This document shows positions 58,298 to 61,240 of a DNA stretch of 64,000 nt, in pieces; within the stretch, counting starts at the first letter, position 1, and every line of letters begins with the position of its first letter. A program made the position numbers and the translations under genes. Origin of the DNA: Micromonospora sp. NBC_01813 (lineage in GTDB: Bacteria; Actinomycetota; Actinomycetes; Mycobacteriales; Micromonosporaceae); contig NZ_CP109067.1 in assembly GCF_035917335.1 (NCBI RefSeq), positions 3,223,001 to 3,287,000 on the forward strand, in the 5' to 3' direction. The notes below the pieces were generated by a model, which saw only the letters and a program-made list of their open reading frames with translations, was not told the origin of the DNA and did no database searches.

Positions 58298-59452
58298 TCA
58301 GGACCGGAACGGGCCGCGTACCTCGTAGGTGATGCCGCCGGCCGACAAGCCGGCGGTGCCCCGTTGCGAGGAGAAGTAGAACCGGGTGCCGTCCGGGGAG
58401 AACGCCGGGCCGCAGATCTCCGACGACGACTGCCCGCTGATCCGCAGGAACGGCGCGATCCGCTCGTCCGGGGTGATCAGGCAGATCTCCATGTTGCCGC
58501 CGTCCTCGGCGACGTACAGGTCGCCGCCCGGCGTACCGGTGATGTTGTCGACGCCGGTCAGCGGCGGTGTGCCGGTCACCAGCGAGTCGTCGTAGGCCAG
58601 GTCGATTCGCTGGTCGACCGCGTCGTACGCCCAGACCCGGTTGTCGCCCTTGGTGGTGAACCAGCAGACGCCGTCGGCGTAGTGGCAGCCTTCGCCGCCG
58701 TTGAACCGCTTGGCCCCGGAGACCTGGTTACGGGTCAGCGTCGGGCTGCCGTCCGGGTCGGGCACCCGGGCCCAGGTCACCGGGCCGCTGGTGGCGGTGC
58801 CGGCGACCAGCACCTCCAGGGTGCCGGCGGACAGGTTTCCCCAGGTGGTGGGGCGGAAGCGGTAGAAGCAGCCGTTGGTCTCGTCCTCGGTCAGGTAGAT
58901 CACCCGGCGGACCGGGTCGGCGGCGGCGGCCTCGTGGTTGAACCGGCCCATCGCGTCGCGTCGCACCGCGCCGGTGCCACCGAGCGGATAGGTCTCGTAG
59001 ACGAAGCCGCGGTTGACCTCCTCGCAGGACAGCCAGGTGCCCCAGGGCATCGCGCCGCCGGCACAGTTGCGGTTGGTGCCGGCCAGGATCCGGTACGCCG
59101 AGGCGATGCTGCCGTCGGAGTCGAACCGGATCGCCGACGCCCCGCCGGTGCGGGAGATCTCCGAGTTGGAGACGTAGACCCAGCCGGTGCCGGCGGGGAA
59201 GCAGGCGCCGCCGTCCGGGGCGTCGTGCCAGACGTACGAGGTGGTGCCGACCCGCTGCCGGGAGCGGGCGACGACCCGGCTGGTGAATCCGCCGGGTAGC
59301 GCGATGCCGTTGGCGTCGGGGCCGGCGAGTGGGCCGTACGGGCTGACGGCGGGCTGGGCCGGGGCGGCGAACGCGCCGGTCCAGAGGCTGCCGGAGAAGG
59401 CGGCGGCGCCGGCGCCGACCACGGTGGCGCGCAGCACTGTACGACGATCCAT
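58298..59452 (-). CDS. Tat-exported DUF839 (PhoX-like) protein
   Basis: This 384-residue protein has a twin-arginine signal (MDRRTVLRATVVGAGAAAF) and a PhoX/DUF839 beta-propeller (GGAMPWGTWLSCEEVNRGFVYE, GRFNHEAAAADP, TEDETNGCFYRF, GEGCHYADGVCWFTTKGDNRVWAYD). Some relatives are calcium-dependent alkaline phosphatases. It is shorter than PhoX, so phosphatase activity is uncertain. It is released or kept in the cell wall space. Confidence 0.88.
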   Translation of the reverse strand: MDRRTVLRATVVGAGAAAFSGSLWTGAFAAPAQPAVSPYGPLAGPDANGIALPGGFTSRVVARSRQRVGTTSYVWHDAPDGGACFPAGTGWVYVSNSEISRTGGASAIRFDSDGSIASAYRILAGTNRNCAGGAMPWGTWLSCEEVNRGFVYETYPLGGTGAVRRDAMGRFNHEAAAADPVRRVIYLTEDETNGCFYRFRPTTWGNLSAGTLEVLVAGTATSGPVTWARVPDPDGSPTLTRNQVSGAKRFNGGEGCHYADGVCWFTTKGDNRVWAYDAVDQRIDLAYDDSLVTGTPPLTGVDNITGTPGGDLYVAEDGGNMEICLITPDERIAPFLRISGQSSSEICGPAFSPDGTRFYFSSQRGTAGLSAGGITYEVRGPFRS

Positions 59453-59581
59453 CTCGAACCTCCATCGACGCTGGTCGCATCGATGAAGTTAGGCTCCGCC
59501 GGTGGCCGCGGATATCGACTGAGGTTAACGGCGGGCGAGGATCGGCCGAAGTACGGTGGTGGCAGCCACCGCGATTTCCGG

Positions 59582-59587
59582 TACAGT
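59582..59587 (+). promoter_or_regulatory. -10 hexamer of the aroG leader
   Basis: TACAGT lies seven bases before the GTG of the leader peptide, placing transcription start at or next to that GTG. Confidence 0.6.
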
Positions 59588-59594
59588 GTCGGTC

Positions 59595-59654
59595 GTGACG
59601 CGTTCGTATCGATGGTTTAGGCAGCCGGCCCTGATGCCGGTGGCTCAGCCTTGA
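59595..59654 (+). CDS. aroG leader peptide (19 aa)
   Basis: GTG 59595 opens the frame MTRSYRWFRQPALMPVAQP, which ends in TGA at 59652-59654. Residues 5, 7 and 8 are Tyr, Trp and Phe, the three aromatic amino acids made by the downstream pathway. No Shine-Dalgarno site is present, but TACAGT lies seven bases upstream, so the peptide is probably read from a leaderless mRNA. It is followed by alternative stems and then aroG. Confidence 0.75.
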   Translation: MTRSYRWFRQPALMPVAQP

Positions 59655-59712
59655 CCTGACGTCACCCCACCAGAGCCGGCCGAGGGCAGAGGGCATCGAG
59701 CCCCTGCCCTTT
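59624..59712 (+). promoter_or_regulatory. Transcription attenuator upstream of aroG
   Basis: A terminator stem is formed by AGGGCAG plus GGGC (59683-59694, one bulged A) with GCCC plus CTGCCCT (59700-59710), then TT. An antiterminator can form between 59628-59646 and 59673-59687, which uses the left arm of the terminator. An early stem (GCCGGC 59624-59629 with GCCGGT 59636-59641) can block the antiterminator. A ribosome stalled at the Tyr/Trp/Phe codons would favour antitermination. Confidence 0.7.
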
Positions 59713-59787
59713 CGTATGCCAACGAGCAGCCGGCTCGGACCTGGGGGCGCCGGCGCCCCGGGGGGCTGGCGGAAGGAAAGACACCCG

Positions 59788-60870
59788 ATGATCCCCACCG
59801 GACGCGTCACCGATCAACGCATCGACCGGGTCGTGCCACTGACCACCCCCGCACTGCTGCACCACGAATTGCCGCTCGACGATCAACTCGCGGCGCGGGT
59901 GCTGGACGGCCGACGAGCCGTCGCCGGGGTGCTCGACGGGCAGGACGACCGGCTGCTCGTCGTGGTCGGCCCCTGCTCGGTGCACGACCCGGCAGCTGCC
60001 CTCGAGTACGCCCACCTGCTGGCCGGTGCCGCCGAGCGCCACGCCGACGACCTGCTCATCGTGATGCGGGTCTACTTCGAGAAGCCGCGCTCCACCGTCG
60101 GCTGGAAGGGCCTGATCAACGACCCCGGCCTGGACGGGTCCGGGGACGTCAACACGGGGCTGCGGACCGCCCGGTCGCTGCTGCTCGAAGTGCTGCGGAC
60201 CGGGCTGCCGGTGGGTTGCGAGTTCCTCGACCCGATCACCCCGCAGTACATCGCCGACACGGTGGCCTGGGGTGCTATCGGCGCCCGTACGGTGGAGAGC
60301 CAGGTGCACCGTCAACTCGCCTCCGGGCTGTCGATGCCGATCGGGATGAAGAACCGTCCCGACGGCAGCGTCGAGACGGCGGTCGACGCCATCCGGGCCG
60401 CTGCCGTGCCGCATGTCTTCCCCGGCATCGACATGTCCGGCACTCCGGCGATCCTGCACACCCGGGGCAACGCCGACTGCCATCTGGTGCTGCGCGGCGG
60501 TGCCGGCGAGCCGAACTACGACGCCGACTCGGTGACCGCCGCGCTGACCCTGCTACGCGCCGCTGGTCTGCCGCAACGTCTGGTCATCGACGCCAGCCAC
60601 GGCAACAGTGGCAAGGACCACCGCCGCCAGCCGCTGGTGGCCGACGACATCGCCGAGCAGCTCGGCGCGGGCCAACGGGGCATCGCCGGGGTGATGCTGG
60701 AGTCGTTCCTGGTGCCGGGGCGCCAGGACCTGGACCCGACCCGCGAACTCGTGCACGGCCAGTCGGTGACCGACGCCTGTCTCGGCTGGGACCAGACCGC
60801 CGAGGTGCTCGAGCGGTTGGCTGCCGCCGTCGGTGACCGCCGGGCCGCGCTCGCCGCCACCCAGCGGTGA
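59788..60870 (+). CDS. aroG: 3-deoxy-7-phosphoheptulonate synthase (class I)
   Basis: This 360-residue enzyme condenses phosphoenolpyruvate and erythrose 4-phosphate, the first step of the shikimate pathway. Class I signatures are VVGPCSVHDP, YFEKPRSTVGWKGLINDP, the GARTVESQVHRQLASGLSMPIGMKN block and IDASHGNSGKDHRRQ. AAGGAAAG lies seven bases before ATG 59788. It sits behind an aromatic amino acid attenuator and ends at a convergent terminator. Confidence 0.96.
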   Translation: MIPTGRVTDQRIDRVVPLTTPALLHHELPLDDQLAARVLDGRRAVAGVLDGQDDRLLVVVGPCSVHDPAAALEYAHLLAGAAERHADDLLIVMRVYFEKPRSTVGWKGLINDPGLDGSGDVNTGLRTARSLLLEVLRTGLPVGCEFLDPITPQYIADTVAWGAIGARTVESQVHRQLASGLSMPIGMKNRPDGSVETAVDAIRAAAVPHVFPGIDMSGTPAILHTRGNADCHLVLRGGAGEPNYDADSVTAALTLLRAAGLPQRLVIDASHGNSGKDHRRQPLVADDIAEQLGAGQRGIAGVMLESFLVPGRQDLDPTRELVHGQSVTDACLGWDQTAEVLERLAAAVGDRRAALAATQR

Positions 60871-60886
60871 GCTGACGCCGGTACTC

Positions 60887-60922
60887 CGGTCGCCCCCGGG
60901 CCGGGTGGCCTGGGGGCGACCG
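60887..60922. terminator. Bidirectional terminator
   Basis: CGGTCGCCCCC (60887-60897) and GGGGGCGACCG (60912-60922) form an 11-bp stem, extended by inner pairs, between the convergent aroG and GlsB-like genes. Confidence 0.75.
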
Positions 60923-60949
60923 AGTCAGCCGGGCCTGCGCGTCGGCCGG

Positions 60950-61240
60950 TCAGGAGACCGCGCGCCCCCGTGCGTCGGTTGGTCGGTGCCCGGCCACCCG
61001 GGCGGCGATCCACACGAAGAAGACCGCCAGCGCCACCTGGATCGCATGCCGTAGCCAGTCGATCCCGGCGGTCTCCCCGATGCCGAGCCAGGTGGCGATC
61101 ACCCCGCCGAGCAGCGCGGCGGCGATGCCGACTCCGATGGTCAGCCAGATCGAGATGTTCTGGCGTCCGGGCAGCAGCAGCCGACCGAGAGCGCCAATGA
61201 CGGCGCCAGCGACCAGCGCCCACAAAATAGTGCCGATCAT
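60950..61240 (-). CDS. GlsB/YeaQ/YmgE family membrane protein
   Basis: This 96-residue protein has three membrane helices and the family start MIGTILWALVAGAVIGALGRLLLPGRQN, followed by a second GxxGA region. These proteins are induced by stress and have no known reaction. GGAGG lies eight bases before ATG 61240. The 358-base spacer that follows (61241-61598) holds no gene I can support, but it has a 40-bp palindrome. Confidence 0.9.
   Translation of the reverse strand: MIGTILWALVAGAVIGALGRLLLPGRQNISIWLTIGVGIAAALLGGVIATWLGIGETAGIDWLRHAIQVALAVFFVWIAARVAGHRPTDARGRAVS

Follow-up and report, generated by a model that had tools for sequence, protein, structure and literature searches.

Class I 3-deoxy-7-phosphoheptulonate (DAHP) synthase catalyses the entry step to phenylalanine, tyrosine and tryptophan synthesis. 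In the 64,000-nucleotide stretch of Micromonospora sp. NBC_01813 DNA analysed here (the window), the gene for this enzyme is preceded by a short reading frame with aromatic codons, which raises the question of whether this leader senses aromatic amino acids and by which RNA structure it would act on the gene. The gene, aroG (59788..60870, + strand, as for all features below), encodes a 360-residue protein that scores above the cut-offs of TIGR00034 (469.8 bits) and NF009395 (492 bits); its start codon is ATG 59788 and its Shine–Dalgarno sequence is GGAAGG, at 59771–59776. A single PF01474 match above cut-off marks a class II DAHP synthase elsewhere in the same genome, making two or more DAHP synthase genes in all, of which this leader serves one.

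As claimed in the first-pass annotation of this DNA, a −10-like hexamer, TACAGT (59582..59587), lies 7 nt 5′ of the start codon of a leader open reading frame (ORF), MTRSYRWFRQPALMPVAQP (59595..59654), which begins with GTG 59595, has 19 sense codons and ends at the stop codon TGA 59652–59654. Inspection of the frame places its aromatic codons at 59607 (Tyr5), 59613 (Trp7) and 59616 (Phe8). Judged from the sequence, the ORF is probably translated leaderless. A TAnnnT hexamer stands 6 nt (17 leaders) or 7 nt (48 leaders) 5′ of the start codon in all 65 leaders of the close group that includes the window (group A), a count made with a script that favoured start codons preceded by TAnnnT. A pattern scan called no sigma-70 site on this strand. 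The first 127 nt of the leader fold more stably than shuffled versions (z −3.28), as does the whole 197-nt leader (z −2.13). Just 5′ of the hexamer lies an inverted repeat, GGTGGTGGCAGCCACC (59555–59570), which by eye is absent from the relatives L083 and L087.

Comparison across loci shows that this arrangement is widespread. DNA 5′ of homologs was collected from 80 named contigs, from Micromonosporaceae, from the class and from the family that includes a Nocardia-like genome, and was searched with a strict rule: TAnnnT 6–8 nt before ATG or GTG, an ORF of 8–40 codons and at least three aromatic residues in eight. Leaders under this rule stand 5′ of class I DAHP synthase at 100 of 116 Micromonosporaceae loci, a set drawn from 113 of the 121 matching genomes. 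Other actinobacteria have them at 110 of 126 loci, the small-genome genus g148 at 25 of 28 and the named set, made up largely of Proteobacteria and other groups, at 25 of 80; one place bears two handles, L307 and L335, and enters two sets of this tally. None was found on the reverse strand of any set, and shuffled sequences gave a mean of 0.2–0.6 (0.2 for Micromonosporaceae). With at least two aromatics instead, the counts are 107/116 for Micromonosporaceae, 28/80 for the named set, 113/126 for other actinobacteria and 26/28 for g148, with 0, 0, 1 and 1 on the respective reverse strands. A leaderless-looking aromatic leader peptide 5′ of class I DAHP synthase, as the annotation had proposed, is thus strongly supported. 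That annotation had also proposed a search of relatives for conserved aromatic codons and for compensatory changes in its stems. Tyr, Trp and Phe do all occur within the first 16 residues in 99 of 100 Micromonosporaceae leaders, as well as in 98 of 110 other actinobacterial leaders and 11 of 25 from g148; compensatory changes were found in a helix described below (1:3) and none in the antiterminator that it had drawn.

For the analyses that follow, 242 leaders were kept from 325 loci: 65 in group A, 74 in B, 56 in C (Nocardia/Rhodococcus), 30 in D and 17 in O, with g148 referred to as group K. Those dropped were copies of the window or of other loci, loci outside Actinobacteria and loci where the script found no leader; among the last is L007, where a WYWRFTRALGGAG frame is visible by eye. 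The leaders favour TTT and TAT, codons shunned by ordinary genes of the window: the 65 group-A leaders contain 72 TTT and 11 TTC, 65 TAT and 0 TAC, against 0 TTT and 41 TTC, 1 TAT and 44 TAC in five long ORFs of the window. Loci missed by the strict rule include eight distant homologs (L183–L190). No recognisable leader was found at two Nocardiopsis loci (L010, L075) or at any of the 12 loci of family f17 (L212, L214, L216, L218, L221, L223 and L225–L230), all with the class I enzyme, which can therefore do without a leader; in these lineages the leader would have been lost or was never present. An upstream peptide at L216 is common to Nocardiopsis L075.

RNA models extend the relationship across groups. 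Searched against the whole genome, model R1 gave six matches at E≤1, of which the aroG leader is the best (1.7e-29); the second (E 0.01) looks by eye like part of another coding sequence, and the remaining four are short and partial. A model built solely from group A found the leaders of 11 of 21 given loci at E<0.001, two of the 21 being loci without a leader. Its matches include Kribbella, Streptomyces, Catellatospora, Rhodococcus and Nocardia (6e-15 to 8e-5), with Rhodococcus L008 (1e-5) and Nocardia L012 (8e-5) from group C, and the group C leaders are accordingly homologous to those of group A. L309 (0.024) and L333 (0.22) matched weakly and L149 only at E 3, and the model missed the D leaders L022, L032 and L068 as well as L307 and L353. 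Rfam covariance models gave 0 matches at E≤1 in window positions 58500–61000 and 0 gathering matches in 16 loci.

The RNA between the leader codons and aroG contains several segments with alternative partners. Element 1, GCCGGCCCUG (59624..59633), can pair with element 2, GCCGGU (59636..59641), in an early stem (59624–59629 with 59636–59641) that is present as first annotated, or with element 3, CAGAGCCGGC (59671..59680), which abuts the stem of a terminator-like hairpin (59683..59710). Helix 2b (59639..59666), formed by GGUGGC 59639–59644 and GUCACC 59661–59666, flanks the stop codon. On the 3′ side of the terminator, element 4, GCCGGCUC (59729..59736), can pair with element 3 or with element 6, GGCUGGC 59764–59770, which adjoins the Shine–Dalgarno sequence (together 59764..59776).

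These pairings were compared by a swap test, in which the duplex of a leader's own segments is set against partners swapped between species, 0.5 meaning no covariation, and by column covariation in alignments of non-redundant subsets (A1, 28 of the 65 group-A leaders; A2, 46 of the 51 B and D leaders, five being left out; A3, 25 of the 56 group-C leaders). Helix 1:3 scores 0.29–0.31 in A, 0.29 in B and 0.41–0.43 in D, and shows no covariation in group C (0.489), while pairings 1:2, 2:3 and element 2 with the terminator arm give 0.49–0.61 in A, B and D. In the columns of helix 1:3, the 46 B and D leaders hold 13 double-change cells, a number reached by none of 500 shuffles, and the 28 group-A leaders hold 6, reached by 1 of 500; counted as pairs rather than cells, double changes are unremarkable (51/500 shuffles for the 46 leaders, 185/500 for the 28), and in group A a slide of +1 gives almost the same covariation score. 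Since kinship can push covariation above shuffles, non-covarying helices on the same rows provide a better control; one such is the early stem 1:2, whose pairs are conserved in B and D with no double change and no effect in the swap test. Helix 2b in group A exceeds every one of 500 shuffles in covariation score, on just 2 double-change cells, which 37 of 500 shuffles reach. For group A, the evidence on helices 3:4 and 4:6 is mixed: in the swap test the own partner of 3:4 beats swapped ones in A, B and D, and 4:6 scores 0.385 in A, but neither shows column covariation in that group. In group C, pairing 1:6 shows no covariation, and 3:4 is almost invariant and hence uninformative.

The position of helix 1:3 is tied to the aromatic codons. 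In the window, the first base of the last Phe codon is followed 8 nt later by the start of element 1, and this distance is 5–8 nt in 55 of 65 group-A leaders, 4–8 nt in 74 of 74 group-B leaders and 6–8 nt in 30 of 30 leaders of D and 23 of 25 of K; the 23 of 56 group-C leaders with 5–8 nt come from a search that often chose a later stretch there. Across A, B, D and K, Phe lies anywhere between 5 and 12 codons from the start codon, whereas the Phe-to-element-1 spacing is near constant, which would fit Phe as the main signal.

The hairpin at 59683–59710 had been taken for a terminator that competes with an antiterminator. The hairpin is present, with only three U in the six bases that follow (UUUCGU), and it was not called by a standard terminator scan of the window strand, so that the U tract of the window is weak. 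Defined as a hairpin with 6 or more pairs whose six following bases include 3 or more U, situated between the leader stop and the Shine–Dalgarno sequence, a terminator is nevertheless conserved, being present in 63/65 (A), 69/73 (B), 27/28 (D) and 8/17 (O) leaders, against 4, 7, 1 and 0 after shuffling. The K counts, 4/25 against 1, are unusable because bulged stems were missed; group C, with 3/56 against 4, has no terminator. The gap between element 3 and the terminator is 0–4 nt (52 group-A leaders), and helix 1:3 adjoins the terminator stem with no shared bases. The competition did not hold up: in a folding model, the probability of the terminator stem is at least 0.91 in the untranslated, stalled and at-stop states in all 65 group-A leaders, and its minimum over all modelled states is 0.93 in 52 A and 60 B leaders; in 25 D leaders the mean is 0.94–0.96 and the minimum 0. 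A stem formed in every modelled state leaves group A with no equilibrium antiterminator, and base-pair competition at equilibrium would not explain regulation.

These results bear directly on the classical trp-type scheme inferred in the first-pass annotation, in which element 2 would pair with element 3 and the 5′ arm of the terminator (59628–59646 with 59673–59687) and compete for the same bases. The core pairs of this antiterminator can be drawn and are formed in 95.1% of alignment cells in group A. However, its 2:3 core shows 0 double changes in 8 pairs over 28 group-A leaders, the own partner is no better than a swapped one in A, B or D for either 2:3 or element 2 with the terminator arm, and the terminator stem stays formed throughout in 65/65 leaders. 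The base-sharing antiterminator was rejected by the swap test, column covariation and folding alike, and we consider this scheme highly improbable. Of the annotated classical attenuation there remain the leader peptide with its sensor codons and the terminator; the helix that covaries is a different one. It is more improbable still, to the point of being hardly credible, that the leader is conserved and yet non-sensing, its ORF aiding downstream translation and its aromatic residues being incidental. Leaderless short ORFs are common in actinobacteria, as such an account would expect, but the conserved aromatic cluster, the TTT/TAT bias, the fixed spacing from Phe to the helix, the helix covariation and the known response of the C. 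glutamicum relative all speak against it.

A third alternative, that control is mainly translational, the leader freeing or blocking the aroG Shine–Dalgarno sequence through elements 3, 4 and 6 and a hairpin at the site, with the terminator secondary, draws support from group C, where the terminator is absent and a hairpin around the Shine–Dalgarno sequence covaries (20 double-change cells, 0/500 shuffles as high; 5 of 7 pairs with a double change; swap test 0.31–0.35 against 0.54 for the control). Groups B and D lean the same way (site-hairpin swap test 0.36–0.44, controls about 0.5). On the other side, the number of double-change pairs in the group-C hairpin is unremarkable (147/500 shuffles) and 64.4% of its cells pair, so that it is not universal; the site hairpin is unsupported in the window's group A (0.47 against 0.44 for the control) and in O (0.52–0.57); helices 3:4 and 4:6 lack column covariation in A; and the reports on C. 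glutamicum deal with transcription. The energy of opening the Shine–Dalgarno sequence was also modelled, in five ribosome states for 230 leaders (12 of the 242, without a usable start codon and Shine–Dalgarno sequence, were omitted) and, with 26 leaders taken from each of groups A to D, at 18 ribosome positions. In A, B and D, where the ribosome stands makes little difference to site opening. A translational switch in group A was discarded, the opening effects being small and of mixed sign, with a modest trend only in C. Mainly translational control is judged unlikely. Within group C, the absence of a terminator together with the covarying Shine–Dalgarno hairpin suggests that the output may have moved to translation, and such a shift may be the simplest reading of that group. 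In two group-C leaders, L249 and L314, inspection by eye shows six or seven T directly behind a hairpin of which element 3 is part, an arrangement closer to the classical overlap of such an element with a terminator; the terminator definition lists L249 only.

The reading that we prefer, and hold to be quite likely, is that the aroG leader is a ribosome-controlled attenuator of the type of AroR, the leader peptide of C. glutamicum aroF, in which the ribosome very probably turns aroG down when aromatic amino acids are plentiful. Transcription would start at or beside the GTG and a 70S ribosome would begin immediately. With charged aromatic tRNAs in plenty, the ribosome would reach the stop codon and sit on both arms of helix 2b, thereby separating element 1 from element 3; RNA polymerase would then halt at the terminator. 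When the tRNA for Phe (and Tyr or Trp) is scarce, the ribosome would wait at codons 59607–59618, the 1:3–2b hairpin would form and more transcripts would read through into aroG. Elements 3, 4 and 6 may provide a further layer of control, at the level of translation. The modelled probability of helix 1:3 in group A is 0.74 in the untranslated state; a ribosome stalled two codons short of Phe raises it to 0.99, one stalled on Phe gives 0.38 and one at the stop 0.92. The mean of 0.92 at the stop arises because pairing across the ribosome was allowed, whereas the value of 0.38 is a misfit with a simple rule that stalling makes 1:3 in the case of Phe itself. The folding model alone thus does not demonstrate the switch. 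A broader version of this attenuator reading would have a ribosome paused on aromatic codons act through a helix that abuts, rather than overlaps, the terminator, as a class-wide actinobacterial mode of termination control without a base-sharing antiterminator; the Nocardia/Rhodococcus branch would have lost the terminator and control access to the ribosome-binding site, its output having switched from transcription to translation. We put this version forward tentatively, as somewhat doubtful.

AroR itself has the sensor sequence Phe-Tyr-Phe (PMC4046766), and attenuation of aroF via aroR by Phe has been reported (PMC11802643, PMC7356990, PMC11525245); Phe limitation reportedly raises aroF transcription, with Tyr being without effect (PMC11802643). 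AroR resembles the leader of the window in its aromatic cluster, its spacing of leaderless type, its terminator hairpin and its place 5′ of a class I DAHP synthase, and differs from it by the absence of the Trp codon that is added in Tyr-Arg-Trp-Phe of the window. The abstract of Neshat et al. (2014) on C. glutamicum reportedly calls attenuators leaderless. A link to the window's order of elements comes from locus L353 of g148, which has RFYF codons ending in Phe, GGCUCCGG as element 1, CCGGAG as element 3, a hairpin and a U tract. Its connection to C. glutamicum rests on a stretch beside the leader that matches 24 letters of a published aroR primer, the last of which may belong to an inserted promoter; the exact primer pattern occurs in 0 of the 151 genomes of g148. 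Leaders of g148 differ from that of the window in their Trp content (11 of 25 within the first 16 residues) and in their U tract, which is long in g148 and short in the window, where element 1 contains GCCGGC.

Other actinobacterial attenuators share parts of this design. In Streptomyces lividans, the leaderless TrpL1 and TrpL2 attenuate trpE and trpS and likewise combine leaderless leader peptides with sensor codons, TrpL2 having hairpins and no U-rich stretch, but they have other target genes and respond to Trp only; among the eight leaders listed in the accessible part of that paper, none is for aro (PMC8079986). Seliverstov et al. (2005) described trp, ilv and leu attenuators of actinobacteria that are likewise built of leader peptides and terminators; in the available excerpt, aro genes are unnamed, the trp attenuators possess antiterminators, a leuA element pairs leucine codons with the Shine–Dalgarno sequence, and many leader-peptide attenuators have a terminator and miss some classical component (PMC1262725). 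For C. diphtheriae, the trp, ilvB and leu leaders are the only ones named in the excerpt at hand. The aroG leader makes the known gap in such attenuators testable, and its covarying helix 1:3 would be a concrete candidate for the missing component. The annotated suggestion that this exact form may not be described needs dividing: aroR/aroF of C. glutamicum is already described, whereas the Trp codon, the class-wide spread and the covarying helix were not found in the literature searched, in which subscription journals were thinly covered and neither the 1:3 helix nor an aromatic leader at a Micromonosporaceae DAHP synthase gene was reported. On the comparative evidence, the aroG leader is real and conserved, functional-looking and of AroR type; what is new is its Trp codon, its other element sequences and its class-wide spread. 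The C. glutamicum aroR type of attenuator is thereby extended to much of the actinobacteria, groups known for antibiotics included, as a sequence-defined RNA without an Rfam match.

The sensor cluster is not uniform over this range. In family f20 (genera g83 and g105), it contains Tyr and Phe and no Trp, for example RRYPYFAQAPGGAG (L193, L194, L196–L205, L207 and L209), so that the set of sensed residues would vary by lineage. Outside the actinobacteria, class I DAHP synthase genes preceded by short ORFs with 5–7 aromatic residues in seven, such as MSAKFYFYFFWHLRPLADREG, occur in Burkholderiales, Xanthomonadales, Hyphomicrobiales and one Anaerolineae bin (L023, L024, L030, L034, L037–L040, L042, L043, L046, L048, L049, L052, L053, L055, L057, L058, L060, L063, L072, L074 and L078–L080), which suggests that aromatic leader peptides at class I DAHP synthase may extend well beyond the actinobacteria.
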